From positions 1 to 22,998 of the forward strand of contig JAKAWN010000052.1 in NCBI GenBank assembly GCA_021827245.1: a stretch of DNA of 22,998 nucleotides. The letters run 5' to 3'. Below are positions 3,948 to 22,400 of the stretch, in pieces (the stretch's first letter is position 1; every line of letters begins with the position of its first letter). A program made the position numbers and the translations under genes. The DNA is from Acidobacteriota bacterium (GTDB lineage Bacteria > Acidobacteriota > Terriglobia > UBA7540). The notes under the pieces were generated by a model that made no database searches, had not been told where the DNA came from, and saw nothing but the letters and a program-made list of their open reading frames with translations.

Positions 3948-6900
3948 GTGAAAGTAAAAAAGAAATATTGGGTTCTTCCGCTAGTCCTCGCGTGTTTTGT
4001 TTGTTTGATACCTGTGCACCTGGCATTCGGCTCGGCAACCGCAGGAAACATTATCGGGACGATAACAGATCCGTCGGGAGCGGCAGTCCCAAGGGCGAAG
4101 GTAGTGGCGACAAACGTTGCGACGGGAATCACCACGACAGCAGAAACAGACCATACCGGCAACTACTCCGTATTGCATTTGCTGCCGGGAAATTACACGG
4201 TGACCATCACGAAACAGGGATTTCAAACGACAATTCAAAAAAACGTTACGGTGGCTGTGGCAACCTCGACCCCGCTCAATGTCAGTTTAAAGGTGGGCGC
4301 TGTTTCGTCACATGTAACGGTGAGCTCGGCCCCACCCCTGGTGGAAACCACTAACGCCGAAGTTACCACGCGGCTCAGTTCCCATTTGATTCAAAGCATT
4401 CCCATCTCCGGCCGGAATTTCACCAAGTTTGAACTGCTGTTACCAGGCGCGGTTTTGAACAATTTCCAGCATCCTCTTAATGAGAACCCGGGAGACGATA
4501 TCCTGGTAAACACCAACGGCCAGGATTATGACGCCAACAATTTTATGATCAATGGAATGTCAAACAACGATGCCGTCCTGGGAATTTCTCTGATCAACCC
4601 TCCGCTCGATTCCATCCAGGAAACTAAAGTGACCACGTCCAATTATGATGCGGAGTACAGCCAGGCGGGGGGCTCGGTGATTCAGGTGGAGACTAAGAGC
4701 GGCACCAACCAGATTCACGGTTCCCTCTTTGAATATCTCCAGAACAACGTATTCCAGGCGCGCGATCCGTTCACGCAGGGGCTGCATGCTCCGGGCACGC
4801 CCTCACCGGCGCACCGCGGTATTCCTGAATTGCGCTTTAACCAGTTCGGGGGATCAATCGGCGGACCGATTAAGAAGAACAAAATGTTCTGGTTCGGCGA
4901 CTTCCAACTGAACCGGGAAAATCTGGGCGGCTCGGTTCTGACGCGAGTGCCGACGGCATTGGAGCGACAGGGGAATTTGAGTGACCTGGGCGTTCCCATC
5001 TACAATCCCACGACAGGGAATGCCGACGGGAGCGGGCGGGCGCTGTTTCCCAACGCCACCATTCCCACAGCCATGATCGCCCCTCAAGCAACCAAGCTGA
5101 TGGATTTTCTTCCGGCGCCCAATATTACGGGTGCAACGGGAGCTGCGCCCAATTACGCGGTTTCTGGCGTGAACCATTACGATACCAATCAATTTGATCT
5201 TCGGTTTGATCACTATGTGAACAGCAAGTTGAACTACTTCGCAACTTACAGCTACGCGGGCGTCAATGTGCTGTCTCCCGGGGCCTTTGGACTTTATGGC
5301 GGACCTGAGATTTCTCCAACGGGGGTCAACATGTACGAAGGGAACGCCAACGATATGCTGATGAATGGCCAAGTCACTGTCAACTACGTTTTCAGCCCTT
5401 CCCTGCTGGGCGATTTCCGGTTTGGCGCCAATCGTTATCACATCGTGGAAAATGCACTTGACGCCAACACCACTCTCGCCCAACAAGTAGGGATCCCGGG
5501 AATCAACCTTCCCCAGTTGTTCGGCAGCGGCGGGCTGCCCGATCTCTATATCAATGGCACCGGCGCGTTCGAAATGGGCTACCAGTGCAACTGTCCACTG
5601 CGTGAAACAGAGGACGTTTTCCAGTGGGTCACGGACTGGACCAAGATGGTGGGCAATCATACCATCAAATGGGGCGCCCAAATCCAGTCAGCCTCGAACT
5701 TGCGCCTTCCGAGTGATAACCACCGTGCAGGTGTTTATCAGTTCAATTCCAGTGTGACGGCCTCAGGCGCTGATCCGACCGCCGGCTCGGGGCTTGCCAG
5801 TTTCCTCTTAGGCGATCCCAGTTCTTTCGCGCGGTTTGGCCAGGTCTCAACCAATCAAATGGACGAGCAGAAACGGATGTTCTACTACGTGCAGGACACC
5901 TGGCGTGCAACTCGCAAGTTGACGCTAAGTTACGGCCTGCGCTGGGACACCTGGTTTCCGGATTACTCGCGCCACGCCGGACAGGGCGGCCGATATGAAA
6001 TCTCCAACAACCTGGTGTTCATCCCCGGTATTGGCGGGAATTCCCTCAGCGCGAACGGCCAGACTCAATGGACGAACTTCAGCCCTCGTTTCGCTATCGC
6101 ATATGCTCTGCGGCCCACCACAGTGATTCGTACCGGTTGGGGACGCAGCTATTATCAGGGAACATTCGGTTGGACGTTCAACAACCTGGCAGCGGACATC
6201 TATCCCTCTATTGTGAACCAGCAGATCAATGCAGCTTCAGAGTTCTTCCCGGTTCAATTCACCAATCTTGGTACGGTGTCCGCAGCTCCTTCAATTGGTA
6301 CCGCGCCGCCCTTGCCGGTCTTCCCAAGAATTCCATCTACAGGCGTCATTCCCCTGGCCAACGGAATCAGCGATTCCTATCTACCTGCCAACCAAAAGAT
6401 TCCGTACGTCGATTCCTACAACTTCACGATTGAGCATCAATTTTCGCGTGGCATTGCGCTGCAGGTTGGCTACGTCGGCAACCAGGGGCGCAATCTGAAC
6501 ATGGGCTGGAACATGAATGAGCCCATCCCCGGACCCGGCTCCTTTACCTCGCGGCAACCGTACTACGCCTTGTTCGGACTCACGCAGACCATTTTTGACA
6601 AATGCGATTGTGAAAGCAGCAACTACAATGCTCTCCAGATGCAGGCCACGAAGCGGTTCTCTCACAATCTGTCGTTCATCGCGAATTTCACCTGGCAAAA
6701 GGCATTGGACTACGGTGAGTTTGGCACGCCGACCGATCAGTACAACACCATGCTGGATTACGGGCCGGCTACGTTTAATCGCCCCTTTGTTCTCACCATC
6801 GGGCACACCTACTTCCTGCCTTTCGGCAAGGGCCAGCATTTCGCCTCGAATGTAACCGGCGTAATGAACCAGATCATTTCCGGCTGGCAATGGAGCGGGT

Positions 6901-7322
6901 TCACCACGTGGGAGGACGGATCGCCTCTCAACGCCGGGCTTTCCAGCAACGCTTCGTTGAATTCTTTCATGAGCCTCCGGCCGAATCAGATCAGCAACCC
7001 ATTGGTCGGCACTCCACATAACAGAAACCAATGGTTCAACCCGGCGGCGTTTGCGGTTCCGGCGCTTTACCAGTTCGGGAATGCCGGCCGCGACGCCATC
7101 AATGGTCCCCACCTGTTCGAGGCTGACTGGTCGCTGTCAAAGAACTTCAAGGTCACCGAACGGCTCAACGCTCTGTTCAGTTGGGAAGTGTTCAATGCCT
7201 TTAACAACACCAACCTGGCCAATCCCAGCAATGACAACATCGACACGCCGACGGCCGGGCTCATTACTGACGTGCAAGCACCCATGCGGAACATGCAGTT
7301 CGGTTTGCACCTGACCTGGTAA
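3948..7322 (+). CDS. TonB-dependent outer-membrane receptor 1 (carboxypeptidase-regulatory-like, Oar type)
   Basis: The product is 1124 residues from GTG 3948, chosen because of the strong AAAGGAGG site. A Sec signal peptide (about 1-28, ending LAFG) is followed by a carboxypeptidase-regulatory-like beta-sandwich (about 33-118: GTITDPSGAAVPRAKV...GNYTV). A plug domain (about 133-268) follows, with the IPISGRNF and SGTNQIHGSLFE motifs, and then a beta-barrel to the C-terminus. The last residue is Trp, as in barrels recognised by the BAM complex. Two Cys-x-Cys pairs (547/549 and 886/888) may form disulfides in external loops. Such receptors import large ligands across the outer membrane using TonB/ExbBD energy. 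No SusD gene is adjacent. Two GH65 genes follow directly, which suggests an oligosaccharide ligand. The ligand is inferred, not seen. Confidence 0.9.
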   Translation: MKVKKKYWVLPLVLACFVCLIPVHLAFGSATAGNIIGTITDPSGAAVPRAKVVATNVATGITTTAETDHTGNYSVLHLLPGNYTVTITKQGFQTTIQKNVTVAVATSTPLNVSLKVGAVSSHVTVSSAPPLVETTNAEVTTRLSSHLIQSIPISGRNFTKFELLLPGAVLNNFQHPLNENPGDDILVNTNGQDYDANNFMINGMSNNDAVLGISLINPPLDSIQETKVTTSNYDAEYSQAGGSVIQVETKSGTNQIHGSLFEYLQNNVFQARDPFTQGLHAPGTPSPAHRGIPELRFNQFGGSIGGPIKKNKMFWFGDFQLNRENLGGSVLTRVPTALERQGNLSDLGVPIYNPTTGNADGSGRALFPNATIPTAMIAPQATKLMDFLPAPNITGATGAAPNYAVSGVNHYDTNQFDLRFDHYVNSKLNYFATYSYAGVNVLSPGAFGLYGGPEISPTGVNMYEGNANDMLMNGQVTVNYVFSPSLLGDFRFGANRYHIVENALDANTTLAQQVGIPGINLPQLFGSGGLPDLYINGTGAFEMGYQCNCPLRETEDVFQWVTDWTKMVGNHTIKWGAQIQSASNLRLPSDNHRAGVYQFNSSVTASGADPTAGSGLASFLLGDPSSFARFGQVSTNQMDEQKRMFYYVQDTWRATRKLTLSYGLRWDTWFPDYSRHAGQGGRYEISNNLVFIPGIGGNSLSANGQTQWTNFSPRFAIAYALRPTTVIRTGWGRSYYQGTFGWTFNNLAADIYPSIVNQQINAASEFFPVQFTNLGTVSAAPSIGTAPPLPVFPRIPSTGVIPLANGISDSYLPANQKIPYVDSYNFTIEHQFSRGIALQVGYVGNQGRNLNMGWNMNEPIPGPGSFTSRQPYYALFGLTQTIFDKCDCESSNYNALQMQATKRFSHNLSFIANFTWQKALDYGEFGTPTDQYNTMLDYGPATFNRPFVLTIGHTYFLPFGKGQHFASNVTGVMNQIISGWQWSGFTTWEDGSPLNAGLSSNASLNSFMSLRPNQISNPLVGTPHNRNQWFNPAAFAVPALYQFGNAGRDAINGPHLFEADWSLSKNFKVTERLNALFSWEVFNAFNNTNLANPSNDNIDTPTAGLITDVQAPMRNMQFGLHLTW

Positions 7323-7400: not shown

Positions 7401-9614
7401 ATGGAGCTTGCACGCGTGTCTCAAAGGTTGCCGAAAATGTCTGCCTATCGCCGATCGGCGGTAATTCCGATCCTGATCATTCTATTGATTGCGCCGCTCT
7501 GGGCCGCGACGGCGCCTTCCGAACCTTCTGGAACGGCCGTGCCGTCGGCAGCAGTTCTGGATTCCTTCCAGTTTTCAACGCACATTTATTCGAGTTATTT
7601 CCCCACACTGCTCGGAAACGGGTATCTTTCGGCCTCGACGCCTTGGAACGGAGCGTCCGCCTCGGAGGCAACTCTGACCGGACTCTATGACGACCTCGAG
7701 CAGAATTCCTATGCCTATCAGGCCCTGATCCCTTCGTGGAACAACATCGACTACTGGGACGGTTCGCACTGGCTCGACCAGCTTCCTGCGGCTTCGATTC
7801 ACCTGCAGGGCTACCTTCAGACTCTTGACATGCGCCGGGGGCTGCTGACCACCCGCTTTGACTGGGTGGATGAGGATCACCTGACCCGCGTCAAAATCGA
7901 AGAGTTTCTGAGCCGTCAGAATCCGCATCTCGGCGTGGTTCAAATCCAACTGACGCCCGATTACGGAGTTACGGTGGGGCCGGTCACTTTTTCTTTTTCC
8001 TTGGGAGGCAGGACCGGACCGCCCTTTTTGTGGGAAGGGGCTGAGTTGCCGGGCGCAATTCCCATCCGCAGTGTGCACGCGGACAGTGACCGGCACGGGT
8101 TTGTTGCCGGCTGCGAGACGCGCGACGGAAAGATCCAGGTCGCGGAAGCTGTCCGCCTAGCCCTGCCTCGAAACCTGCCGCCAGTACACCAGGTTAATCT
8201 GGGATTTTCCTCGAACCTGGCGACGCCAGCCCTTAATGTGAAATTTATCGTCCATAAAGGGCAGACGTATACCTTCACGAAGTTCGTCGCCGTCGAGTCC
8301 TCACTCGATTCAGAATCACCGGTGGCCGCCGCGCAGGCGGTTGCGAAACAAGCGGCAAAAACAGGATTCGATAAGATTCTGAAACAGCACGTCGATGCCT
8401 GGGAAAAATTGTGGCAGACGGACATCATTGTTCAAGGCGATGTCGAAGCGCAGAGGGCTATTCACGCGGCGATGTATTACCTGCTCTCGGAACTGCGGCC
8501 GGGTGGAAATTGCAGTGTGCCGGCCATGGCCTTGCCATCGCGCGCCTACCTGGGCCGTATCTGGTGGGATGCTGACACTTGGATCTTCCCCGGCATGCTT
8601 GTGCTCCACCCGCAAATGGCCCATTCAATCGTCGCTTACCGGGAAGAGCGGCTGGCGGCAGCCGAGCAAAATGCCAGAAGCCGCGGCTATCGCGGCGCAC
8701 TTTACCCTATGGAGTCAGCCGGCTCCGGGCAGGAGACAGCACCGGAATGGAGCAGCGAAATCCACGTGACGGGCGACGTCGCCATGGCTCAGTGGCGCTA
8801 CTACCAGGCCACGGGCGATCTGCACTGGCTTCGCCTGCACGGCTATCCGGTGATCCGCGCAGTCGCCAATTTCTGGGCCAGCCGCGCCGAGGCCGAGCAG
8901 CACGGCCGTTACGAAATCCTCCACGTGACGGGACCGAATGAAGCCATCACGGACGTAAATAACGACGCCTATACGAACGCCATCGCAAAAAAAACAATGG
9001 AAGTGGCTACTGAAGCCGCCCGCTTGCTGGGGGAATCGCCCAATCCTGAATGGGACCGCGTGAGTCGGAAAATGCTGATTCCTTTCGATGCCCGGCGGCA
9101 GGTGCACCTGGAACATTCGGGCGATGAGCAAGGAAAGTATGCTTCCGCGCTCATACTGCTCACCTATCCGCTGGAAATGAGACTCTCCGATGCCATCGAG
9201 CAGAACGATCTGAATGCTTGCCTGAAGAACTTCGGAAAGCCGGGTTATGAAGTGGGCATGATGGGCAACTTCTATTCGATTGTGGCCTCGCAACTGGGGA
9301 AGCGAGAGCTGGCTTACAGGCTTTTTCTTTCCCTGATTCGTTCTTATGCACAGCCGCCATTTGAGGCAATGACGGAGACGCCAAGCAACGGCCGAGCGGT
9401 GTTCCTGACAGCGGAAGGGGCGTTCCTGCAACAGGTCATTTTCGGTTTCACTGGCCTGCGCTTCACCAACCAGGGCCTGAAGGCCAAGTATCCTCCGCTC
9501 CTGCCGCCCACCTGGCAGTCGCTGGAATTGCGCGGAATCAAATCGCAAGGAAAAGTCTACGACATCCGTGTGACCTCAGCGAATAAGCTCGTCATGCGGC
9601 AAATGGCCCCGTGA
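7401..9614 (+). CDS. Secreted GH65-type alpha-glucoside hydrolase A
   Basis: The product is 737 residues from ATG 7401. The GAGGA at 7389-7393 supports this start over GTG 7356, which lies inside a hairpin; ATG 7437 is also possible. A Sec signal peptide precedes an N-terminal beta-sandwich with LLGNGYLS. An (alpha/alpha)6 barrel follows with IWWDADTWIFPG and GPNEAITDVNNDAYTN. Glu514 in GPNE is the predicted general acid. Glu659 in FEAMTETP is the predicted base, 145 residues later. As I recall, GH65 hydrolases (human PGGHG, the FjGH65A kojibiosidase) carry acid and base about 144 residues apart, whereas phosphorylases use phosphate instead of the base. Hydrolysis of an alpha-glucoside is therefore expected, with kojibiose-type or Glc-alpha-1,2-Gal linkages as candidates. 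It is a diverged tandem paralogue of the next gene. Confidence 0.85.
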   Translation: MELARVSQRLPKMSAYRRSAVIPILIILLIAPLWAATAPSEPSGTAVPSAAVLDSFQFSTHIYSSYFPTLLGNGYLSASTPWNGASASEATLTGLYDDLEQNSYAYQALIPSWNNIDYWDGSHWLDQLPAASIHLQGYLQTLDMRRGLLTTRFDWVDEDHLTRVKIEEFLSRQNPHLGVVQIQLTPDYGVTVGPVTFSFSLGGRTGPPFLWEGAELPGAIPIRSVHADSDRHGFVAGCETRDGKIQVAEAVRLALPRNLPPVHQVNLGFSSNLATPALNVKFIVHKGQTYTFTKFVAVESSLDSESPVAAAQAVAKQAAKTGFDKILKQHVDAWEKLWQTDIIVQGDVEAQRAIHAAMYYLLSELRPGGNCSVPAMALPSRAYLGRIWWDADTWIFPGMLVLHPQMAHSIVAYREERLAAAEQNARSRGYRGALYPMESAGSGQETAPEWSSEIHVTGDVAMAQWRYYQATGDLHWLRLHGYPVIRAVANFWASRAEAEQHGRYEILHVTGPNEAITDVNNDAYTNAIAKKTMEVATEAARLLGESPNPEWDRVSRKMLIPFDARRQVHLEHSGDEQGKYASALILLTYPLEMRLSDAIEQNDLNACLKNFGKPGYEVGMMGNFYSIVASQLGKRELAYRLFLSLIRSYAQPPFEAMTETPSNGRAVFLTAEGAFLQQVIFGFTGLRFTNQGLKAKYPPLLPPTWQSLELRGIKSQGKVYDIRVTSANKLVMRQMAP

Positions 9615-9703: not shown

Positions 9704-11848
9704 ATGACGATTTCCAGACGCTCATTCATGAAAGACGTGGGAATATTCGCGGGTCTTTCGTCGGGAATTCCAGAACTGTTGGGAAGCGTGACGCCAGAGG
9801 TGAGCTCAGGTCAGGCCTCGTCCGCGGGGACGGCTCCGCAATCCATTCCTCGGATTGTGGTCACAAACTTCACTGAAAAGTTCTACCCGGCCTATCTGAG
9901 CAACGGGCTGATCGGAATTCGTCCTGGACCCAACCCGCTGGTTCCCGCCAAGACGATGGTGAACGGGTTCGTTTATACCGACATCCCTTACAGGATGGTG
10001 AGCCTTTCTCCCGCGCCTTACCCGCTGACGACCGACTTTCGAGTGAACAACGTCAGCCTGCTTAAGCATCCCGAGTTGGTCAAGGTGGAACAACAGACGC
10101 TGGAAATGGCCAGCGGCGAACTGCTCACCGAAATGACCTTCACGCCCCCGAGTGGCACGACGCTCCGGTTGCGGGTTTTGCAATTTGCCTGCCGGGCCGT
10201 GCCTTCGCTTCTGTGCCAGATGATCACCTTCACTGTTTCATCCGATGCAAAAGTTGAAATCCTTGCTGGTATCGACGCTGCCGATTTCTCTGGCTCCGTT
10301 TACAGCACCCGCCCGCCTGAACGCACCGAGATTGATCTGGCTGTTGGTTACCTCAGTCAGGGCGCACTGAGCAAGTTGGGTGTGGCAGTCGCAGCGCCGG
10401 CAGGGGGCGATTTCAAGAGCTTGGGCCAGCAAGTCACGGGTCGGGCGTCTTTTGCCGCGGGCTTCGACCTGGACTCGAAAGCAGGACAGACTTATCAGTT
10501 TCCCACAATCGCCGCGATGGTCTCGGACTTCTACCAGCCCGAGCCGGAGCAGGAAGCCATCCGCCACGCCAAATGGGGCGCCATGCTGGGATTCGATTAT
10601 CTTCGCCAGCAGAACCGCGAACGGTGGAACGGCCTTTGGGAATCCCGCGTAAGAGTTGATGGCGACTCGGATTCGCAACGGGTTCTCGATTCAGCCTTCT
10701 TCTATCTGCATTCGAGCCTTCATCCCTCCAGTAAGAACGGCATGGCGCCTTTCGGCCTTTCGCAGTTTGATTATTACTATGGGCATAGCTTCTGGGATAC
10801 GGAAACGTGGTCACTGCTTCCTATCACTCTTGCGGCGCCCGCTACGGCGAAATCGCTGCTTGAGTTCAGGATTCGAGGACTTGAGAATGCAAGGCGGCTG
10901 GCGGCGCTTTACGGCTACCGTGGAGCCCAGTTCCCGTGGGAAGCAAGTCCTATTGACGGCGCTGACGTGACGCCCACCTTCGCCGGTACCGGCTGGGAAG
11001 AGCAGCACGTGACGCCGGATGTCGCGCTGGGCTTCTGGGAATATCAGATGGCGACGGGCGATGAGGAATTTCTTCACAAGGGAACCTGGCCCATCCTTCG
11101 CGCGGTTGCCGAATGGATAGAAAGCCGCGGTGTGGGCACCGCCAGGGGATTCGAGATCCTGCACATCATGGGGCCGGATGAAGGCGTTCAGAATGTCAAC
11201 AACAACTCCTACGTGAACGTGATCTGCCGCATGGTACTGGACGCGGCCGTGAGTTGCGCCTCAATGGTAGGAGCTAAGCCACCGGCATCCTGGGCCAGGA
11301 TCGCGCGCTCGATGGTGGTCCCGATTGATAAAGCCCGGAACATCGTCCTGCCCTATGACCATCCGGGCAAGGGCCTGGAGTATTCTCTGGGCAACATGGC
11401 TATGCTCACGGTCCATGATCCGCCGCTTGACCGGACACTGCTGAAGAACACCTATGAATATGAAGCGAAACTTCGCGCTCAGCGCCCCCATGGCATTGGT
11501 TTCGCACTGGATGCGTTGGCGGCTGCGGCTGCGTTTTTCGGCGACCGGAGCGCGGCCGCCAATCTCTATCGCAAGTCCTGGCAGAACGTGTGGGTCGAAC
11601 CTTACGGGATGATTAAAGAAGCTCCCAGCGAGGATTACGCCTGCTTCCTCACCAACTTCGGCTCGTTGCTGCAAACCGCCATGTTCGGGTTTACGGGAAT
11701 CCGCGCGGCCGCCCCGGGATGGGCCAAATATCCGGCCACCTTCCCCGAAGGGTGGGAGCGGATCGAGATTGACCGCGTATGGCTGGGAGGCACGCCTTAC
11801 AGATTGATTGCCCGCAACGGCCAAAAAGCAGAGTTGTCAAAAGCGTGA
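9704..11848 (+). CDS. Tat-exported GH65-type hydrolase B
   Basis: The product is 714 residues from ATG 9704, with AGGAG 8 bases upstream. It opens with a twin-arginine signal (SRRSFMK plus a short hydrophobic stretch), so it should be exported folded. The N-terminal sandwich contains FYPAYLSNGLIGIRPG. The catalytic barrel contains FWDTETW and GPDEGVQNVNNNSYVN. Glu493 is the predicted acid and Glu639 (MIKEAPSED) the predicted base, 146 residues apart, as expected for a hydrolase rather than a phosphorylase. It shares the GFTGIR-type C-terminal segment with its neighbour, but the two proteins differ widely elsewhere. Their specificities may therefore differ. It follows gene A by 89 bases and is probably co-transcribed. 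The substrate is inferred only at the level of an alpha-glucoside. Confidence 0.83.
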   Translation: MTISRRSFMKDVGIFAGLSSGIPELLGSVTPEVSSGQASSAGTAPQSIPRIVVTNFTEKFYPAYLSNGLIGIRPGPNPLVPAKTMVNGFVYTDIPYRMVSLSPAPYPLTTDFRVNNVSLLKHPELVKVEQQTLEMASGELLTEMTFTPPSGTTLRLRVLQFACRAVPSLLCQMITFTVSSDAKVEILAGIDAADFSGSVYSTRPPERTEIDLAVGYLSQGALSKLGVAVAAPAGGDFKSLGQQVTGRASFAAGFDLDSKAGQTYQFPTIAAMVSDFYQPEPEQEAIRHAKWGAMLGFDYLRQQNRERWNGLWESRVRVDGDSDSQRVLDSAFFYLHSSLHPSSKNGMAPFGLSQFDYYYGHSFWDTETWSLLPITLAAPATAKSLLEFRIRGLENARRLAALYGYRGAQFPWEASPIDGADVTPTFAGTGWEEQHVTPDVALGFWEYQMATGDEEFLHKGTWPILRAVAEWIESRGVGTARGFEILHIMGPDEGVQNVNNNSYVNVICRMVLDAAVSCASMVGAKPPASWARIARSMVVPIDKARNIVLPYDHPGKGLEYSLGNMAMLTVHDPPLDRTLLKNTYEYEAKLRAQRPHGIGFALDALAAAAAFFGDRSAAANLYRKSWQNVWVEPYGMIKEAPSEDYACFLTNFGSLLQTAMFGFTGIRAAAPGWAKYPATFPEGWERIEIDRVWLGGTPYRLIARNGQKAELSKA

Positions 11849-12106: not shown

Positions 12107-14551
12107 ATGAAAAACAATCCGGAGCGATCGTGCGAAATGTCGCGCAGAGATTTTGTTCGAAACTGCGTTGCGGGAGCTGCCGGCCTTGTCTCAAGCTCCT
12201 CACTGTTGGCTGGAGCGACCGCTTCAAGGATGCTCGCGGTCCAATCCGGTTCGGCGTACCGTGCCATCCCACTGAACCAGGGCTGGCTTTTCGGCGGCAA
12301 GCTGAACAAGGCCGGCCTTGAGCCAGGGTTCGACGACGCGGGTTTTGAGCGTGTCAGCCTTCCGCACTGCGTGGCCAAGCTTTCCTGGCAAAAATGGGAT
12401 CCGGCGGAGTGGGAGTCCGAGTGGCTTTACCGGCGCCACTTTGCGTTGCCGCAGGAAATGAGGGGCCAGCGCATCTTTCTACACTTTGACGGGGTTATGG
12501 TTGGCGCGACTCCGGTGGTCAATGGCCATAAGCTGCCAGAACATCTGGGCGGCTACCTGCCTTTCCAGTATGAGATCACGCGCTTGCTGGCCGCAAGGGA
12601 GAATGTGCTGGCCGTCGCCCTCGACTCCCGCTGGAGCAACACGCCGCCGGAGGGTTCTCCGCTGGGGCCAATATCGATTGACTATCTTGAGCCAGGGGGC
12701 ATTGTGCGGCCCGTCAGCTTGCTCGCTGTGCCGCAGGTTTTTATCAGCGATGTGTTTGCCAAACCCGTTAAGGTTCTGGATTCTGACCGGCGAGTGGAAG
12801 TGAGTTGCTCGATCAACGCGGCCAGCGTGCCGGCCCGTCCCGTGCGAATCGAGGCTGCGTTGATGGAAGGGGGACGGGTGCTTACTCGCGCTTCCCGAAG
12901 CCTGGCCATCAACAAGGAAGGAGAGACGACTGTTGCACTGACCCTGGCGAACCTTGGCAACGTGAAGCTCTGGGATGTAGACGCCCCTCACCTGTACGAT
13001 GTCAGAGTCACGCTCTCCGAAAATCATAAGCCGATGCATGAGTACCGGACGCGGATCGGTTTTCGCGAGGCGCGCTTTGAAGTGGATGGATTCTTTCTCA
13101 ACGGGCGCCGGTTCGAAATCTTTGGTCTGGACCGGCACGAACTTTATCCCTACGCTGGCTTCGCCATGCCGCGCCGAACTCTTCGCCGGGACGCGGAGCT
13201 GCTTCGTCACACCTTCAATTGCAATTTTGTGCGCTGCTCGCATTATCCGCAATCCGAAGCCTTCGTCGAAGCGTGCAATGAACTGGGCCTGATGGTGTGG
13301 GAAGAACTGCCGGGCTGGCAATATCTTGGCGATGCTCTCTGGAAAGAGCGGGCTGTCAGGGATGTAGAAGGCATGGTGCAGCGCGACCGAAACCACCCCG
13401 CCATAGTCATCTGGGGTGTTCGCATCAACGAGTCTCAAAACGATCCTGAGCTTTACCGCAAGACAAAGGCCGCAGCCGACTCTCTCGATGGCTCGAGGCC
13501 GACCTCGGGCACGATGACTCCTTCTTCCACCAGGAACTATCTCGAGCACCCGGACAATTGGCTTCAGGATGTCTTTGCGTTTGACGACTATCACGCAAGG
13601 CCCGACGGCAGCGTGGACATCGCAAAACCGCTTCCCGGAGTGCCGTACATGGTCACAGAAGCCGTGGGGCAGTTCAATTATGCGGCCCGCAGCGGCTTCA
13701 ACGCGATCTACCGGCGGACCGGTGACGTGGAACTGCAAATGGCGCAAGCCATCAGGCACGCCCAGGCTCACGATAGGGGTGCGGCCTACCACCGTCTGGC
13801 GGGAGTGGTCGCCTGGTGTGCGTTTGACTACGGAAGCCTGCTCAACTCCTACCACGCAGTGAAGTACCCGGGCATTGCCGACATCTTCAGAATTCCGAAG
13901 CTGGGCGCATCATTTTACATGGCGCAGGTTGATCCAACAATCCGCCCGGTGATCGAGCCCAACTTCTACTGGGACTTCGGCCCTCACACACCTTCGGGAC
14001 CGGGCAAGAAAGCTGCGATCTTCTCGAATTGCGAAAGGCTGGAACTGTTCATCAACGGCAAACACCATGCAACCGTCCACCCGGACCGGGCAAATTTTCC
14101 GCGGACCAAGTACCCGCCGTTTTTCGCCGACCTCAGCATGGATGGATCAGAAAAGCCTGAGCTTCGCATCGACGGCTACACGGGCAAGACGAAGTTGCTG
14201 TCGCGTTCTTTTTCATCTGACCCTTCGAAAGACAAACTTCTTCTGCGTGCAGACGGTACCGATCTGGCCGGCGACGGCATTGACGCCATCCGACTGGAGT
14301 TCAAGGCCGTGGACCAATATGGTGCCATGCGCCCATTCGCGGGCGGGCAGGTAGGCTTTGATGTCAGCGGACCAGGCGTCATTGTGGGTGATAATCCCTT
14401 TGATCTGGGACCAAGCGGCGGCGCCGGAGCCGTCTGGATCAAGGCGGCGAAGTGCGAGTCAGGCCGCATCAAGGTTACGGCAACTCACGCCTCGCTGGGG
14501 CGCGCATCGGTCGAGATCACTGTGTCACCATCCCCTTGCCGTAAACTCTGA
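12107..14551 (+). CDS. Tat-exported GH2 family glycosidase (beta-galactosidase/beta-glucuronidase-like)
   Basis: The product is 814 residues from ATG 12107; ATG 12137 is an alternative, and both keep the twin-arginine signal SRRDFVRN. A jelly-roll sugar-binding domain (EWLYRRHFALP, LHFDGV) is followed by an immunoglobulin-like domain and a TIM barrel beginning near FFLNGRRFEIFGLDRHE. The predicted acid/base is Glu442 in HPAIVIWGVRINES. The predicted nucleophile is Glu518 in PYMVTEAVG. The segment between the Trp and the Asn-Glu pair is one residue longer than in classical GH2 enzymes. Two C-terminal beta-sandwich domains follow, one with SNCERLELFINGK and a last Ig-like one ending near SVEITVSP. 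GH2 enzymes retain configuration and act on beta-linked galactosides, glucuronides, mannosides or others. A beta-galactoside is plausible here from context, but not certain. Confidence 0.85.
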   Translation: MKNNPERSCEMSRRDFVRNCVAGAAGLVSSSSLLAGATASRMLAVQSGSAYRAIPLNQGWLFGGKLNKAGLEPGFDDAGFERVSLPHCVAKLSWQKWDPAEWESEWLYRRHFALPQEMRGQRIFLHFDGVMVGATPVVNGHKLPEHLGGYLPFQYEITRLLAARENVLAVALDSRWSNTPPEGSPLGPISIDYLEPGGIVRPVSLLAVPQVFISDVFAKPVKVLDSDRRVEVSCSINAASVPARPVRIEAALMEGGRVLTRASRSLAINKEGETTVALTLANLGNVKLWDVDAPHLYDVRVTLSENHKPMHEYRTRIGFREARFEVDGFFLNGRRFEIFGLDRHELYPYAGFAMPRRTLRRDAELLRHTFNCNFVRCSHYPQSEAFVEACNELGLMVWEELPGWQYLGDALWKERAVRDVEGMVQRDRNHPAIVIWGVRINESQNDPELYRKTKAAADSLDGSRPTSGTMTPSSTRNYLEHPDNWLQDVFAFDDYHARPDGSVDIAKPLPGVPYMVTEAVGQFNYAARSGFNAIYRRTGDVELQMAQAIRHAQAHDRGAAYHRLAGVVAWCAFDYGSLLNSYHAVKYPGIADIFRIPKLGASFYMAQVDPTIRPVIEPNFYWDFGPHTPSGPGKKAAIFSNCERLELFINGKHHATVHPDRANFPRTKYPPFFADLSMDGSEKPELRIDGYTGKTKLLSRSFSSDPSKDKLLLRADGTDLAGDGIDAIRLEFKAVDQYGAMRPFAGGQVGFDVSGPGVIVGDNPFDLGPSGGAGAVWIKAAKCESGRIKVTATHASLGRASVEITVSPSPCRKL

Positions 14552-14689: not shown

Positions 14690-17600
14690 ATGAAAGACCG
14701 ATGGAGACCCTGTCTGGCATGGCAAGGCATGCTCGCCACAATCGCCCTCGCTCTTGTGTTTGGGTTTTGCCCGGTACGCGGCTATGCTCAAGCCTTCGGA
14801 ACAATCAGCGGAAACGTAACAGACCCTTCCGGGGCTGTGATACCTGGAGCCAAGGTTACAGCTACCGAAACGGGAACTACTTTTTCCCGCACCGCAACTA
14901 CAGGCAGGAATGGGCAATACGTAATCCCCAACCTGCGTCCAACCCAATACGACATGACGGTTGAGGCCAACGGCTTCAAAAAAGTCATCCGGAAGGGCAT
15001 CACCCTGTTGGCCAACCAATCTGCCACGGTGGATTTTCACCTGCAACTTGGTTCCACCGTCCAGTCCGTAACGGTCACAGGAGGCGCGCCGCTCGTCAAT
15101 ACGACGACGCAGACCCTGAGCTCTGTGGTGGGCCGGGAACGGATGGTCGGGCTTCCTCTGAACGGCCGCAACGCCGTGCAGTTGATGACCCTGGTGCCGG
15201 GGGTGACCGGAGTGTCGCCGGCCACGACGACAAGCCAGAGCACGCTGCCCGGCGCAACAAACGCCAACATCAACGGTTCTCGAAATAACCAGACCAGCTA
15301 CGAGCTGGATGGTGCGAATTACGTGGACCAATACTACAACGTCAACATCCCCTTTCCTTTTCCCGACGCGCTGCAGGAATTCAGCGTGCAGACGGACAAT
15401 TACTCCGCCCGTTACGGAGGAAACGCCGGCGGCGTGGTCAATGTGGTGACCAAGAGCGGGACCAACCAGTTTCATGGCGACCTGTTTGAGTTCGTCCGGA
15501 ATCCGGTCTTTAACGCCCGAAATTTCTTTTCGGTGGATAGGGACAAGATCAAGCGAAACCAGTTCGGCGGGACGTTTGGCGGACCTGTCGTGATCCCCCA
15601 CGTGTACAACGGCCACGACCGCACATTTTTCTTTGTCGGGTATCAGGGTGAAACGTATCGCGATGTGAGCACGTCACACACCTTCGTGCCGACACCGGAT
15701 GAGCTGAATGGCAATTTCTCCGCCCTGCTCGACGCCAGCAACCCAAATAATCCAACCGGCAAAGCCACACAAATCGACAACCCATGGCCCTATGCGATCG
15801 GAACCACCGGCCCTGGACAGCCTTTTCCGGGCAACATCATTCCTGCCAGCGGCCTCGATCCTGCGGCTCTGAACCTGGCGCAGAACTATCTCCCGCATGT
15901 TGGCGGCGACGGTGGAGTTTTTTACACCCATCCCACCGTGCAGGATATCACCCAGGTCATTCTACGCTTGGACCATCGGCTCGGCGACAAAGACACCCTC
16001 ACCGGACGCTGGTACAAGGACCACGTTAACTTCGTGCCCCAGAATCCCGCTGGCAATCTCCTCGGTTACGCTGCCGGATATGACCAGCCGGTGAACAACA
16101 TCATGATTCAGGAGACGCATACTTTCCGGCCGAACCTGCTGAACCAGGCGAGCTTTACATTCTCGAACGTGCCAACGGAAAAAACGTTCACGAGCAACTC
16201 GCCCAATGCCGCAACGTTTGGCGTCCAGCTCCCTTGGCTGCCGACAACGAAATGGATTCAGAACATCGATGTCAGCGGTGCTTTTGGCATCAACGGCGGC
16301 GCTAAGGGGCCCTTCAACAACAAGGACTATGGATTCCAGGACAATCTGAGCTGGGTGCTGGGGCGGCACAACATTGATTTGGGAATGAGTTATGACCGCT
16401 CGATTGTCAACCTGGGCGATCAATACCTGGCCCAGGGGGCGTTCAGCTTTAACGCCACATCGACGAATTATTCCCTCGCAAGTTTCTTGCTGGGCTATAT
16501 GAACAACTTCCATCAGGGATACGGCGAGTACAAAAACAACCGCAACAATTTCTGGGCATTCTATTTCAACGACAGTTTCCATGCCACACGCCGGCTGACG
16601 CTCAATTATGGATTGCGGTACGAGCCTTACTTCCCATGGAGGGAGATCAAGGGCCGGGCGGAGCAGTTCAGCCCCTCTAATTACTACGCTGGTGTAATGT
16701 CTCAGAAATTCATCAACGCGCCACCGGGCTTGCTGTTTCCCGGCGACAAGGGTGTGCCTTTTGACGGCGTCACCGGCAATTACTCGAACTTCGCTCCCCG
16801 AGTGGGTTTCGCCTATGACCTGACGGGCAATGGCAAGACCAGCATTCGCGGGGGCGCCGGCTTCTTCTACGACTCGCAAACTGCCGGCGTCATCAACAAT
16901 CGCTTCGCGGATATCACGCCTTTCAGCCCGCAGGTCAGCCTTTCTCCGTCGCCCGGGCCTTTCAGCGAACCGCTGCGGGGGTACTCAGGCTACTATCCAT
17001 TTCCGTTCACCTATCCTCCCGCGAGCGACACGCCATTCTCGCTGCCGGTCCTGGTGATTACGTACGACCCGTCTACGAAGTATCTCGTCCCCGTGACGTA
17101 CGAGTGGGATATGGCCGTGGAGCGTGAGTTCGCCCACAATATGATGCTCCAGGTCGCCTATGTCGGCTCCGTGTCTCGCCATAACAAGGAAACCATTCAA
17201 CTGAATCCGTGTCCCGTGAATGCCACCACGACGTGCAAAGACTCCCTAAGGCTCTTTGCGCCTTACTACGGCCAGGTTGCTATGGATGGCCAGGATGTAA
17301 ACTCCAACTTCAATGCCCTCGAAGTGACGTTCAAGAAGCAGATGACGAAGAAGTTGAGCCTCGACGTCGCCTACACGTATTCCAAAGCTCTGGATGATAT
17401 TCCCAACGGCGGCAACAACAACGACATCAATTCGGACAGCTCCTCCCCGATACCTTGGTTCATGCCGGGGCGGCATCAGTTTGACTACGGTCCGGCAGGC
17501 TTTGATAGGACGCACAACCTGGTGGTTTCCTACGTGTGGGCATTGCCGGCCCTTTCCGGCGCAAACTGGCTCGAGCGGGGCGCGCTCGGAAACTGGGAAT

Positions 17601-18040
17601 GGAGCGGGATTGTGAGCGCGAGCTCTGGCGCTCCTTTCACCATCACCGCAGGTAAAGACGTGTCGGGAACCGGGCTAGGCCAGGAGCGTGGCGTTCAGGT
17701 TGCGGGGGTGAATCCCTCCGCCTCCGGGCCATGCGGCGGCCAGTTTTGTGTAAGCTACCTCAACAAGGCGGCGTTTACGCAGCCCGCAGCCGGGACGTTC
17801 GGCACACTCGCAAAAGATAGCTTCAGAGGCCCAGGGTATTTTGACTGGGATATGGGCGTGTTCAAGAATTTCCCGGTAACAGAACGCTTCAGACTGCAAT
17901 TCCGGGCGGAGTTCTTCAACACTTTCAATAACGTCAATTTCAGCAACCCGAACAGTAGTGTGAGCGCCGGCGGTTTCGGGACCATCACAGGCGCAAATTC
18001 TCCGCGAATCGGGCAGTTGGCGCTCAAGCTGTTCTTCTGA
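14690..18040 (+). CDS. TonB-dependent outer-membrane receptor 2 (carboxypeptidase-regulatory-like, Oar type)
   Basis: The product is 1116 residues. ATG 14690 is chosen because AGGGAGG (14675-14681) lies 8 bases upstream; the in-frame ATG at 14654 would add 12 residues. A signal peptide (to about residue 35, GYAQA) precedes a carboxypeptidase-regulatory-like domain (about 36-120: GTISGNVTDPSGAVIPGAKV). The plug contains GLPLNGRNAVQLMTLVPG, the ELDGANYVD segment and VVTKSGTNQFHGDLFEF. The beta-barrel ends in Phe-Phe, a normal outer-membrane signal. Paired Cys residues in NPCPVNATTTC and GPCGGQFC may form loop disulfides. It clearly belongs to the same family as receptor 1 but differs through most of the barrel, suggesting a different ligand. 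It lies between two GH2 genes, and no SusD-like lipoprotein is present. Confidence 0.9.
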   Translation: MKDRWRPCLAWQGMLATIALALVFGFCPVRGYAQAFGTISGNVTDPSGAVIPGAKVTATETGTTFSRTATTGRNGQYVIPNLRPTQYDMTVEANGFKKVIRKGITLLANQSATVDFHLQLGSTVQSVTVTGGAPLVNTTTQTLSSVVGRERMVGLPLNGRNAVQLMTLVPGVTGVSPATTTSQSTLPGATNANINGSRNNQTSYELDGANYVDQYYNVNIPFPFPDALQEFSVQTDNYSARYGGNAGGVVNVVTKSGTNQFHGDLFEFVRNPVFNARNFFSVDRDKIKRNQFGGTFGGPVVIPHVYNGHDRTFFFVGYQGETYRDVSTSHTFVPTPDELNGNFSALLDASNPNNPTGKATQIDNPWPYAIGTTGPGQPFPGNIIPASGLDPAALNLAQNYLPHVGGDGGVFYTHPTVQDITQVILRLDHRLGDKDTLTGRWYKDHVNFVPQNPAGNLLGYAAGYDQPVNNIMIQETHTFRPNLLNQASFTFSNVPTEKTFTSNSPNAATFGVQLPWLPTTKWIQNIDVSGAFGINGGAKGPFNNKDYGFQDNLSWVLGRHNIDLGMSYDRSIVNLGDQYLAQGAFSFNATSTNYSLASFLLGYMNNFHQGYGEYKNNRNNFWAFYFNDSFHATRRLTLNYGLRYEPYFPWREIKGRAEQFSPSNYYAGVMSQKFINAPPGLLFPGDKGVPFDGVTGNYSNFAPRVGFAYDLTGNGKTSIRGGAGFFYDSQTAGVINNRFADITPFSPQVSLSPSPGPFSEPLRGYSGYYPFPFTYPPASDTPFSLPVLVITYDPSTKYLVPVTYEWDMAVEREFAHNMMLQVAYVGSVSRHNKETIQLNPCPVNATTTCKDSLRLFAPYYGQVAMDGQDVNSNFNALEVTFKKQMTKKLSLDVAYTYSKALDDIPNGGNNNDINSDSSSPIPWFMPGRHQFDYGPAGFDRTHNLVVSYVWALPALSGANWLERGALGNWEWSGIVSASSGAPFTITAGKDVSGTGLGQERGVQVAGVNPSASGPCGGQFCVSYLNKAAFTQPAAGTFGTLAKDSFRGPGYFDWDMGVFKNFPVTERFRLQFRAEFFNTFNNVNFSNPNSSVSAGGFGTITGANSPRIGQLALKLFF

Positions 18041-18200: not shown

Positions 18201-20813
18201 ATGATCAAACAGCTGAAGCGTGGCGCAGTGGTGTTCGTGCTGGGAGCGGTGTGTCTGTCGGTGGGTTGTTCTCCGTCGGGCACGAGCCAGCCGGGAGAGG
18301 TGTGGCATGCTCCTGAGCCGGCGCGGACAGTTCAATTGCTCGACACAGGCTGGATGCTGCACAAAGAGCCGGGATTTCGCCAATGGCCGCCGGAGCCACA
18401 ATTGACCGACGCGCAGATCAAAGAGCTGCACTGCCCCCCGCCGGGCAGAGAGTGGGAGCCGGTTCAACTGCCCGATGATTACGTCGTCATGGGGAAGTTT
18501 TCCCGCGAACCGAACGCCTCGCTGCTGGCGGGCGGTGGCAAATGTCTGCCTGGCGGCCGGGAATGTGGGCCGTCTGGCGAAGCGACTGCTGTGAAGAATC
18601 CTCACCTCAAACGCAGCGCCTACGGCGGGCACGGATATCTGCCTGTGTATCCCGCGTGGTACCAACACAGCATCTCCATTCCGGCGTCAGCCAAAGGCAA
18701 GAATGTCTGGCTCAACTTTGGCGGGATCTACCGTGACGCCATTATCTTCGTCAACGGGAAATTCGTTGACCAGCACCCCAGCGGGTACACAGGGTTTCGC
18801 CTGAACATCAGCGACGAGGTTCATTATGGCGCGAAGAACGAAGTAGCGGTATTCGTCGACCCGCGCTGGTTTGAAGGGTGGTTCTACGAAGGCGGCGGAA
18901 TCTATCGGCATGTGCGGTTGATAATCACTGACAAGCTGCAGGTTTCACCGTGGGGGACGTTTGTGATATCGAAAGTCCCCGGGCCGATCCACTACGGCTC
19001 GTCTGAGGGCGACCAGACGGCAGCGGATCTGACCATTCAGACGACTGTGCGCAATGACCATCAGACCAGCCGGGACTTTACTTTGGTGTCGCAAGTGATT
19101 GATCCGGCCGGGAAAATTGTTGCCTCGGCTTCCAACTCCGAAACACTGACAGCCGGGAAAGAGCAGACATTTAATCAGCATGTGTCTCTGAAAAACGCAC
19201 TGCTCTGGTCACTGCAGTATCCTAACCTGTACCGGCTGGCGACCACCCTTCGCTCCGGTGGCTCAACCATTGACAACAAGCTGACTACTTTCGGTATCCG
19301 CACCATCCGGTTTGATCCGGACCACGGCTTCTTTCTTGACGGCAAGCATGTTGAAATTCGTGGCACCTGCAATCATCAGGGTTTCCCTGGAGTGGGTATC
19401 GGCGTGCCGGATAATCTGTGGGCTTGGCGCATTGCCAAGCTGAAAGCAATGGGAGCCAATGCTTACCGCTGCGCGCACAATCCTGTTGCCCAGACGTTCT
19501 ACCGCGCCGCTGACCGGATGGGCATGCTGGTGATGGATGAGAATCGCCACCTGGGCGATACCTATTCGGTCAAGACCAAAATGGGCACACCCTATTCCAA
19601 CCTTTCGGATCTCAAGTGGATGATTCTTGCTCACCGCAATCACCCGTCGATCATCATGTGGTCGATGTGCAATGAGGAACCCCTGGAGTCAACACCCTAT
19701 GGCGCCATGATCTTTGCTGCGATGAAGGCGGTCGTGGAGAGGCTCGATCCCACGCGCCCGACGACCAGCGCGATGAACGGCGGGTATACAAAGGACGGAT
19801 TCATCTCCGTTGAAGGCATTCTCGGCATGAACTACCACAACAACGAATTTGCCAAGATACACGCCGAATATCCACACCTCATGATTTATGGCAGTGAGGA
19901 TATCAACTCAAAAACCTCGCGCGGAACGGTCACGACAAGCCCCGACACTGGCCTGTGTGCAGAATACGGCTGCTGGCTGACTCCCGGTGGAGAGGCTAAC
20001 GGAGGCTTTCCTTGGGATTCCTGGGCGCCGGTGATGGAAAACCCCTTTGTGGCCGGTGAATTTGAGTGGACCGGTTTTGACTACCGCGGTGAACCCAATC
20101 CCTTCAGCTGGCCGGCTGTAACCAGCCAGACCGGGGCAATGGACCTTTGCGGATTCCCCAAAGCGGTTTACTACTACTGGAAAGCATGGTGGGGCAAGAA
20201 GCCCACGGTTTATGTCTTCCCCAACTGGAGTTTTCCAAAGGCCATGACCGGCAAGGATGTTCTTGTTCGGGCGTATTCAAACTGCGAACGCGTGGAGTTG
20301 AAGCTCAACGGCAGGAGCCTGGGGACCCAAGCCATGCCGCGCTACAAATACGTGGAATGGCACGTCCCGTATGCTCCAGGCAAACTGGAGGCAATAGGAT
20401 ATAACGACGGGCAGGTTGCTGCGGAGTACACGGTTCAGACTGCCGGGCCGCCGGTCGCTCTAAAGCTCACCGAAGAAGTCGGTCACCTGGCGGCCAACGG
20501 AGAAGACGTTGCGCCAATTGCGGTGGCACTGGTGGATGCCAAAGGCCAGGTCGTTCCTGGGGCCGATAACCTGGTCCATTTTTCGGTTTCGGGGGACGGA
20601 ACGCTGGCCGGTGTGGCCAATGGGAACCCATCCAGCCATGAAGCCAATGTGGCCGATCAACGCAAAGCCTTTCGAGGTCTCTGCATGGTTCTGGTGAGGG
20701 CTGATGACCACCCCGGAGCCATTACCGTCAAAGCCCAAGCTTCAGGAATTAAGCCCGCCAGTATCGTTATTCATACAACGGCGGCTTCAACGGGAAGACA
20801 GGCTGGTTTGTGA
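18201..20813 (+). CDS. Lipoprotein GH2 beta-galactosidase-type enzyme
   Basis: The product is 870 residues from ATG 18201, preceded by GGGGAGG with a short 3-base spacing. The signal ends in a lipobox-like LSVGC with the lipidated Cys at 23 and Ser after it, so membrane anchoring is expected. A GH2 jelly roll (WLNFGGIYRDAIIFVNGK) contains an extra Gly/Cys-rich loop near KCLPGGRECG. An Ig-like domain and a TIM barrel with HVEIRGTCNHQG follow. The predicted acid/base is Glu492 in HPSIIMWSMCNEE, and the predicted nucleophile is Glu566 in MIYGSED. The later FEWTGFDYRGEPNPFSWP and DLCGFPKAVYYYWKAWW motifs are typical of the bacterial beta-galactosidase branch that carries DUF4982. A DUF4982-like domain (SNCERVELKLNGRSLG) and a final Ig-like domain complete the protein. 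It likely removes beta-galactose from glycans at the cell envelope. Confidence 0.88.
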   Translation: MIKQLKRGAVVFVLGAVCLSVGCSPSGTSQPGEVWHAPEPARTVQLLDTGWMLHKEPGFRQWPPEPQLTDAQIKELHCPPPGREWEPVQLPDDYVVMGKFSREPNASLLAGGGKCLPGGRECGPSGEATAVKNPHLKRSAYGGHGYLPVYPAWYQHSISIPASAKGKNVWLNFGGIYRDAIIFVNGKFVDQHPSGYTGFRLNISDEVHYGAKNEVAVFVDPRWFEGWFYEGGGIYRHVRLIITDKLQVSPWGTFVISKVPGPIHYGSSEGDQTAADLTIQTTVRNDHQTSRDFTLVSQVIDPAGKIVASASNSETLTAGKEQTFNQHVSLKNALLWSLQYPNLYRLATTLRSGGSTIDNKLTTFGIRTIRFDPDHGFFLDGKHVEIRGTCNHQGFPGVGIGVPDNLWAWRIAKLKAMGANAYRCAHNPVAQTFYRAADRMGMLVMDENRHLGDTYSVKTKMGTPYSNLSDLKWMILAHRNHPSIIMWSMCNEEPLESTPYGAMIFAAMKAVVERLDPTRPTTSAMNGGYTKDGFISVEGILGMNYHNNEFAKIHAEYPHLMIYGSEDINSKTSRGTVTTSPDTGLCAEYGCWLTPGGEANGGFPWDSWAPVMENPFVAGEFEWTGFDYRGEPNPFSWPAVTSQTGAMDLCGFPKAVYYYWKAWWGKKPTVYVFPNWSFPKAMTGKDVLVRAYSNCERVELKLNGRSLGTQAMPRYKYVEWHVPYAPGKLEAIGYNDGQVAAEYTVQTAGPPVALKLTEEVGHLAANGEDVAPIAVALVDAKGQVVPGADNLVHFSVSGDGTLAGVANGNPSSHEANVADQRKAFRGLCMVLVRADDHPGAITVKAQASGIKPASIVIHTTAASTGRQAGL

Positions 20814-21194
20814 TCGATTTCCGACATTCGCACATGTTGCAGCATAAATCCTGTTATGGCTTCCCGAAACAGGACGCCAATGTATAGTCGAGCCCTTAGG
20901 TCAGGAAATGCAACGAGTCTGGATTACAAGACAAAACTCTTGCTGAAAGGACCATAAAAGCAGCCTTTCCTCATACTGTAGCAAGCCTGCGTTGGGTACA
21001 GGGATTAACTTCGTGAGCCGAGGTGCAGCCGCGCGAGTGAGTGGGCCATTGAAACTGCAGGAATTCAGGCAAACCATCTGCTTGTCTTTCTCAAAGTCGT
21101 TACGCCCAGGCGTCCTGACCTTTGGTCGGCGGCTTTGCTTTGCGCTTTTTGCCCGGAATTGAAGCACGAAATTAGAAACTGGAGGACGATCATT
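20814..21194. other. Intergenic region between the GH2 lipoprotein and GH27 genes
   Basis: About 380 bases hold no recognisable coding sequence. The only clear structure is a nested inverted repeat. CTTGCTGAAAGG (20939-20950) can pair with CCTTTC (20964-20969) and, past a 10-base bulge, with AGCAAG (20980-20985). It could be a transcript-end structure or a small RNA element. No strong -35/-10 pair was found upstream of the GH27 gene. Confidence 0.5.
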
Positions 21195-22400
21195 ATGCGA
21201 CGACGAGATTTTCTTGGAGCAGGAATGGCACTTGCGGCAATACCTGGAACGGCAGCCGCGCTTACGGGAATGAAACCGATGTCTGCGGGCGACCCGCCTG
21301 GAGAGGAAACGAACCCAAGCGCCAAGCTGGCTCTGACTCCGCCGATGGGGTGGAATAGTTGGAATCACTTCCATCTGAACATCAACGAAGCCATTATTCG
21401 TGCGCAGGCCAAGGCGATGGTGGACAGCGGCATGAAGGAGGCCGGCTACGAGTACGTGGTGATTGATGGCGGGTGGGAAGGTTACCACAATGCCCAGGGT
21501 GTGTTTATCCCGGATATTCTCAAGTTTCCGAATATGAAAGGGCTGTTCGATTACATTCACAGCCTGGGTCTGAAGGTGGGAATTCACGACAGCCCCGGGC
21601 CGGTGACCTGTTCGGGGCGCGAAGCCAGTTACGGGCATGAGCGGCAGGACGCGGAGACCTTTGCGAGCTGGGGCTTGGATTTCATCAAGTACGACTGGTG
21701 CAGTGCAAGGCTGGTCTATAAACCGGACCAGATGAAGGCGGTCTACGAGAAATTTCATCAGGACTTGGTGCGCACCGGGCGACCGATCTTATACAGCATC
21801 TGCCAATACGGCCTCCAGGACGTCTGGAAATGGGGAGCGTCGGTGGGAGGCAATATGTGGCGAACCACCGGCGACATTTCGGATAACTACTACCACATGG
21901 CCTACATCGGCTTTGAGCAGAACGGGCTTGAGAAATACGCGGGGCCCGGCCACTGGAACAACCCAGGCGCGTTAGAAGTTGGAAATGGCGGAATGACAAA
22001 CGAAGAATATCGCACGCACATGAGTCTCTGGTGCATACTTGCGGCTCCTCTGTTTGCGGGCAATGACCTGACGAAGATGAGTCCGGAAACACTGTCCATT
22101 CTGGCCAACCGGGAAGTGATTGCGGTGGACCAGGACCGGGCTGGAATCCAGGGACATCGGGTGTGGCAGGAGGGCCCGATGGAAATCTGGATGAAGCCGC
22201 TGGCGGATGGGAGCAAAGCGGTGGGAATGTTCAACCGGGAAGAGGGCGAAATGACCATGACGTTAAGGTTCACAGACATCGGCGTCACGGGAGCGGCGAA
22301 GTTGCGCGACCTTTGGGCCCACAAGGACCTGGGGACCTTCAACGGCAGTTACACCACCAGCGTGCCGAAACATGGGGTGGTCATGTTGAGGGCAGAATAG
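21195..22400 (+). CDS. Tat-exported GH27 alpha-galactosidase-type enzyme
   Basis: The product is 401 residues from ATG 21195, with GGAGG 9 bases upstream. The frame runs open to 21135, but the upstream part is not signal-like. A twin-arginine signal (MRRRDFLGAG and a hydrophobic stretch to GTAAA) directs export. The GH27 TIM barrel starts with LTPPMGWNSWNHF and continues with YVVIDGGW and GLKVGIHDSPG. The predicted nucleophile is Asp167 in FIKYDWC. The predicted acid/base is Asp227 in WRTTGDISD. The normally very conserved WNDPDML segment reads WNNPGAL here (254-260), so two acidic residues are lost, while EVGNGGMTNEEYRTHMSLW after it is normal. A C-terminal beta-sandwich closes the protein. 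GH27 enzymes retain configuration and release terminal alpha-galactose or alpha-GalNAc. Specificity may be altered here. Confidence 0.87.
   Translation: MRRRDFLGAGMALAAIPGTAAALTGMKPMSAGDPPGEETNPSAKLALTPPMGWNSWNHFHLNINEAIIRAQAKAMVDSGMKEAGYEYVVIDGGWEGYHNAQGVFIPDILKFPNMKGLFDYIHSLGLKVGIHDSPGPVTCSGREASYGHERQDAETFASWGLDFIKYDWCSARLVYKPDQMKAVYEKFHQDLVRTGRPILYSICQYGLQDVWKWGASVGGNMWRTTGDISDNYYHMAYIGFEQNGLEKYAGPGHWNNPGALEVGNGGMTNEEYRTHMSLWCILAAPLFAGNDLTKMSPETLSILANREVIAVDQDRAGIQGHRVWQEGPMEIWMKPLADGSKAVGMFNREEGEMTMTLRFTDIGVTGAAKLRDLWAHKDLGTFNGSYTTSVPKHGVVMLRAE

Follow-up and report, generated by a model that had tools for sequence, protein, structure and literature searches.

Loci in which TonB-dependent receptors stand beside carbohydrate-degrading enzymes and SusD is lacking were described in 2007 as carbohydrate utilization (CUT) loci, and partial CUT loci were counted as well; in the part of that report available, no SusD-like protein is reported for Xanthomonas (PMC1790865). 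Among GH65 hydrolases, FjGH65A is encoded in a SusC/SusD locus, according to the accessible portion of PMC10316084. For Acidobacteria, no description of SusD-free loci of this kind was found in open-access literature on Acidobacteria and TonB-dependent receptors, as far as the accessible text of these papers goes (including PMC3174227, PMC7074687, and PMC9599518). Here, a stretch of 22,998 nucleotides from an Acidobacteriota bacterium (contig JAKAWN010000052.1; the whole stretch is called the window) was analyzed, which carries seven consecutive genes for two Oar-type receptors and five glycosidases. We consider it probable that the cluster serves SusD-free, TonB-dependent glycan scavenging and consists of at least two receptor-led modules side by side, namely Oar1-GH65A-GH65B, with or without GH2-1, and Oar2-GH27, with or without GH2-2.

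The gene order was established from the Pfam domains of the open reading frames (ORFs), and all seven genes lie on the forward strand. Together with the start sites, these domains bore out the gene count, coordinates, and family calls of an earlier note made on this DNA, including the GTG start of Oar1 at 3948.

Oar1, 3948 to 7322, forward strand: Oar-type TonB-dependent receptor with PF13620 (CarboxypepD_reg) and PF25183 (OMP_b-brl_4); ORF from 3897.
GH65A, 7401 to 9614, forward strand: GH65 hydrolase by residue, with PF03632 and PF03636; ORF from 7356.
GH65B, 9704 to 11848, forward strand: second GH65 hydrolase by residue, with PF03632 and PF03636; twin-arginine (Tat)-type signal.
GH2-1, 12107 to 14551, forward strand: GH2 protein with a Tat-type signal; ORF from 11972.
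Oar2, 14690 to 18040, forward strand: second Oar-type receptor, with OMP_b-brl_4; ORF from 14654.
GH2-2, 18201 to 20813, forward strand: GalA-like GH2 protein, possible lipoprotein; ORF from 18144.
GH27, 21195 to 22400, forward strand: alpha-galactosidase-like protein with PF16499 and PF17801, Tat-like N-terminus by reading; ORF from 21135.

Start sites were picked by reading the sequence, and the start of GH2-1 is either 12107 or 12137. Oar1, GH65B, Oar2, GH2-2, and GH27 have a clear purine-rich ribosome-binding stretch; that of GH65A and of GH2-1 is weak. With the chosen starts, the intergenic gaps in gene order are 78, 89, 258, 138, 160, and 381 bases; the last, in front of GH27, is long enough to hold a further promoter.

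Examination of the catalytic residues supported the assignment of both GH65 proteins as predicted hydrolases, as the earlier note had called them. In the alignment, the general acid Glu is kept in 48/48 proteins of the GH65A clade and 120/120 of the GH65B clade, the general base Glu in 48/48 and 119/120, respectively, and the phosphate-site Ser pair is absent from both enzymes (Val-Gly at 575-576 in GH65A, Ile-Gly in GH65B); phosphorylase-like rows carry Ser at the first phosphate-site position in 33 of 35 cases. The two proteins are only 28% identical and fall into separate clades, and on these grounds a recent duplication was ruled out. The tree was built by a quick method from 91 of 247 aligned rows, with Shimodaira-Hasegawa-like approximate likelihood ratio (SH-aLRT) support only and with long-branch warnings. 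No characterized member fell into the GH65A clade among the rows compared.

In FjGH65A (PDB 7fe3), Lys538-Gln539 binds glucose at subsite -1, and Trp391, Glu392, and Thr407 form subsite +1, according to the part of PMC8626586 at hand. When the corresponding positions were examined, GH65A was found to have Lys-Tyr at -1, with Gln replaced by Tyr, and at +1 to have Met in place of Trp, to keep the Glu, and to lack the Thr loop. GH65B keeps the +1 Trp-Glu-Thr set and has lost the -1 Lys-Gln (KQAD motif). The W-E-T motif, which binds the +1 glucose of kojibiose, extends across the GH65B clade (W in 120/120, E in 120/120, T in 115/120), and the -1 Lys-Gln pair is lost in both clades with acid and base retained. 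The KQAD loop of GH65B aligns ambiguously, as Gly-Asn with MAFFT and, read by eye, as Glu-Tyr with phmmer and hhalign, and none of the three alignments retains the motif. In the neighboring GH65 group (P0049-P0072) it is likewise mostly gone; P0062, placed in this middle group, looks like a GH65A-clade fragment (52%). Both enzymes have kojibiose hydrolase (NF053734) as their best NCBIfam match, and neither reaches its bit cut-off or has the full -1 and +1 residue set. The structure model of GH65A has low confidence, which extends to the active-site loops (mean predicted local distance difference test score, pLDDT, 70.9), and that of GH65B falls below a pLDDT of 50 at residues 345-361 and 414-433. 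Characterized GH65 members act on alpha-glucosides, as stated in the available portion of PMC8537180. Judged from their pockets, GH65A and GH65B probably have new specificities; neither these pockets nor the distance between the two proteins had been seen in the earlier note.

Linkage among relatives was approximated by identical contig sizes between the listings of different proteins, in which each protein cluster is represented by its longest contig and about 8000 candidates were scored per search. The comparison covered 47 of the 48 GH65A-clade rows (P0028 has no size; the window's own counts among the 47), the top 120 of the 312 GH65B rows, and, for GH2-1, 119 of the top 120 among 3797 GH2 rows (the row of the window itself was dropped), with identities down to 59%. 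Exact contig sizes were common to listed GH65A and GH65B relatives in 9/47 cases, whereas offsetting one list by 1 to 200 bases in both directions gave 0.24 such cases on average and 2 at most. GH65A contigs of at least 5 kb shared a size with a listed GH65B relative in 8/29 cases and those of at least 10 kb in 8/18. Rows P0049-P0085 were compared as well and shared none; P0086-P0120 were left out. One of the nine pairs comes from a Terriglobia assembly and is read as two adjacent genes from its tags, VFQ24_02845 and VFQ24_02850, and the named close relatives of both GH65s are Terriglobia (P0003, P0122). Together with the Granulicella plasmid match of Oar2 described below, these relatives suggest that the window comes from an acidobacterium of the class Terriglobia. 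The tandem was seen directly in a contig of 3354 bases (L001, CADDYV010000128.1), the one locus yielded by a scan of genome contigs, whose proteins are 60% identical to GH65A and 50% identical to GH65B, the latter cut by the contig end. Based on the shared sizes, the tags, and this tandem, the GH65 pair is a recurring module.

The L001 record is labeled Actinobacteria, though its tandem is of acidobacterial type. Since the receptor family was matched in only 2/21 of its genome and 20 relatives, these being the L001 genome itself and one weak match (39 bits), the contig is probably acidobacterial contamination. Two GH65 relatives from Bacteroidota were examined, and both sit in SusC/SusD loci. 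A further receptor (L002) was dropped as an orthologue, being 26% and 29% identical to the two receptors of the window. Locus L007 carries no annotation. No GH65A relatives were found in IMG/VR; plasmid GH65 matches are distant, with acidobacterial ones numbering 0/60 among the matches listed, out of 225 and 136 matching records.

The second module is paralleled in another genus. Oar1 and Oar2 match OMP_b-brl_4 with 712 and 729 bits, respectively, and are 28% identical to each other. The best plasmid match of Oar2 is a receptor on pACIX902 of Granulicella tundricola (L008; 46% identity over 98%). A GH27 gene comes 31 bases behind this receptor gene, and its product is 51% identical to the GH27 of the window; on other acidobacterial plasmid records, the best Oar2 matches (one row per record) remain below 30% identity. 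The pairing of an Oar2-like receptor with GH27 is therefore also seen in Granulicella, a second and named genus, and the pACIX902 locus is presented here as a putative, fuller SusD-free utilization locus in a named species. Further on, this locus (L008 19884-34657) contains genes for an alpha-L-fucosidase, a GH125 protein, a major facilitator superfamily transporter, a sensor kinase, and a response regulator. The GH27 of the window has KYDWC and TTGDI, which align with the motifs KYDLC and TTGDI in its Granulicella counterpart; the Asp residues of YDxC and TGDI are those we take to be the catalytic pair. The nearest solved structures to GH2-1 are the beta-D-galactosidases 5euv and 5ldr, and GH2-2 scores 830 bits against NCBIfam GalA, under the cut-off of 900. 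Plasmid searches with both GH2s gave only matches below 60% identity.

All five glycosidases look exported, in agreement with the earlier note, judging from motifs or from reading of the N-termini. GH65B and GH2-1 contain the Tat-type SRRxF motif, and GH27 begins with the Tat-like MRRRDFLGAG. GH65A appears to have a Sec-type hydrophobic stretch. GH2-2 could be a lipoprotein from its LSVGC as read, although the lipobox pattern search gave no match there.

No SusD family was found in the 14 Pfam-scanned ORFs among the 51 of at least 100 amino acids in the window, as the earlier note had also reported. The SusD homologue that stands beside the receptor in a Bacteroidota-type polysaccharide utilization locus was not found in this cluster, whose genes are at most 381 bases apart, and one part of the definition of a CUT locus, a receptor gene beside genes for carbohydrate-degrading enzymes, is present. 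When plasmids were searched with SusD_RagB (PF07980, the sole SusD profile used), it was absent from 4/4 Terriglobia plasmids and present in 2/2 Bacteroidota plasmids. The PF25183 receptor family occurs on all four of the former, with 12 and 25 match rows on plasmids of 300 and 476 kb. In a tally made by eye from the annotation of pACIX902, with pACIX901 and the Acidisarcina plasmids outside it, the immediately following gene, on the same strand, was an annotated glycosidase gene for 4/11 receptor genes and a peptidase gene for 2/11; the four glycosidase neighbors are a GH27, an alpha-amylase family protein, a fragmented GH20, and a protein whose sole domain is Rv2525c-like. Given the CUT precedent and these receptor-bearing Terriglobia plasmids without SusD_RagB, the lack of SusD is probably not remarkable and would be ordinary for the group, so that the novelty the earlier note had drawn from it was not supported (PMC1790865, as far as available). 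Searches built on SusC/SusD pairs overlook such loci in Acidobacteriota, and a search for clustering of receptor and glycosidase genes would detect them. Acidobacteriota are common soil bacteria.

Three further genes were identified with Pfam around the cluster.

Divergent MGH1/GH63-like glycosidase gene, 1949 to 3199, reverse strand: tied to the cluster by adjacency only.
Isocitrate/isopropylmalate dehydrogenase-like gene, 701 to 1759, reverse strand: stands behind the MGH1/GH63-like gene.
Phosphofructokinase gene, 22523 to 22996 in the window, forward strand: begins 122 bases after GH27.

The first had been announced as a GH63-like neighbor, and this proved correct, with MGH1-like_GH as its best score (179 bits) ahead of trehalase (78) and GH63 (70). 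It is weakly similar to a Chaetomium alpha-glucosidase, to Thermus TTHA0978 (presumably a mannosylglycerate hydrolase), to trehalases, and to YgjK. Alignments, by reading, place SGVDNNPA and NECYNPDRG at the Asp and Glu motif positions of GH63-type chains, which we assume to be catalytic. The phosphofructokinase gene and GH27 may share one transcript; since the forward run goes on into this gene, strand sets no boundary for a unit. Promoter-like and terminator-like sites in the window were no more numerous than in shuffled sequences (10 versus 8.4, standard deviation 3.0, and 18 versus 22.0, standard deviation 4.5, respectively). The repeat scan of the window was uninformative, and no tRNA or Rfam match was found.

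We consider the following mode of action probable. Exported exo-glycosidases would shorten oligosaccharides outside the cytoplasm. As inverting hydrolases, GH65A and GH65B would take off alpha-linked sugars from non-reducing ends, both GH2s would remove beta-galactosyl-type residues, and GH27 would remove alpha-galactosyl residues. Passage of oligosaccharides over the outer membrane would fall to the receptors, powered through TonB and with no SusD lid. Should the two modules act on a single glycan, the likeliest target is a heteroglycan or glycoconjugate that contains galactose and bears alpha-linked caps.

Several observations weigh against this model of receptor-led scavenging modules. No inner-membrane transporter or regulator was found among the scanned ORFs, and the gaps reach 381 bases. 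Both GH65s score under the curated cut-off of 800 bits for NF053734 (GH65A 399.7, GH65B 289.6). Ten of the 18 GH65A contigs of at least 10 kb have no size match to a listed GH65B relative, and the sole non-Bacteroidota GH65 relative examined, from Sphingobium (L004), has no adjacent receptor and sits on a long branch. Finally, among the 119 contigs of listed GH2-1 relatives, none matches in size those of the GH65A (0/47) or GH65B (0/120) relatives, including the nearest GH65-pair contigs of 26,487 and 288,841 bases.

This last result, within a comparison of longest contigs and the best 120 proteins, is also evidence against one seven-gene unit, which the earlier note had proposed. The check it named, conserved synteny, came out divided: the GH65 pair and the receptor-GH27 pair recur, and the seven genes together were not found elsewhere among the listed relatives and their longest contigs. 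Its reading as a glycan utilization locus is supported as to a SusD-free cluster of receptors and glycosidases and is not supported as to a single unit or novelty through the lack of SusD. The modules might even be mutually unrelated, two or three independent sets that happen to be neighbors in a genome with many Oar-type receptors and glycosidases, an account compatible with modules that denies the seven-gene unit and that we place a little short of even. The density of the receptor family on Terriglobia plasmids, the 4/11 pACIX902 receptors followed by a glycosidase gene, the lack of any contig size common to listed GH2-1 relatives and the GH65 pair, and the occurrence of receptor 2 with GH27 apart from GH65 in Granulicella all speak for it; the single strand and short gaps of the seven genes speak for some connection, as would the GH2 and GH27 activities, which could fit one galactose-containing glycan. 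A bolder proposal, which we hold tentatively and rate as improbable rather than probable, is that the conserved Terriglobia tandem comprises the first members recognized for two new GH65 specificities, with subsite -1 no longer holding an ordinary glucose by Lys-Gln and using an aromatic Tyr instead, acting sequentially on a modified or different alpha-linked sugar, and that the other enzymes of the cluster dismantle the rest of one undescribed heteroglycan. If true, this -1 specificity would depart from the alpha-glucoside family and imply a soil glycan without an assigned degrader.

As to named targets, none deserves more than a low probability. An alpha-1,2-branched dextran or kojioligosaccharides, as for FjDexUL of Flavobacterium johnsoniae, would suit the W-E-T motif of the GH65B clade and the best NCBIfam match of both GH65s, yet the scores lie under the family cut-off, the -1 pair is lost, two GH2s and a GH27 indicate galactose, and the GH66, GH31, and GH97 partners given in the available part of PMC10316084 are absent among the scanned ORFs; we regard this target as unlikely. 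Slightly less likely still is the collagen-type Glc-alpha-1,2-Gal-beta- unit, from which the GH65s would remove Glc like PGGHG and a GH2 would remove Gal. Among relatives of solved structure, human PGGHG ranks second for both GH65A (200 bits) and GH65B (137 bits), and the GH2s are beta-galactosidase-like; however, GH65A has lost the +1 Trp and Thr, both clades have lost the -1 Lys-Gln that aligned PGGHG retains, GH27 would have no role on that disaccharide, and no peptidase was found among the scanned ORFs. The mix of GH65, GH2, and GH27 favors a galactose-containing heteroglycan over both.

Compared with known systems, the type of locus looks routine in this group, and the pockets of the conserved GH65 pair are its notable part. 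The pACIX902 locus has no gene between receptor and GH27, whereas GH2-2 lies between Oar2 and GH27 in the window, and it has no GH2 or GH65 annotated in 43 kb, both of which the window has. The CUT loci of Xanthomonas and others likewise place TonB-dependent receptors beside carbohydrate-active enzymes without SusD, as far as PMC1790865 is available; since no inner-membrane transporter or regulator was found, the window would be at most a partial CUT locus, in another phylum and with Oar-type receptors. FjDexUL likewise combines a TonB-dependent receptor with a GH65 hydrolase bearing a signal peptide, but has SusC, SusD, SusE/F, and SusR homologues with GH66, GH31, and GH97, none of which was found among the scanned ORFs (PMC10316084, accessible text). 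Unlike FjDexUL, the window has two GH65s, two GH2s, and a GH27, and with respect to the alpha-1,2-glucosidase FjGH65A, Lys538-Gln539 at subsite -1 is replaced in both of its GH65 clades, GH65A differing further in the loss of Trp391 and Thr407.

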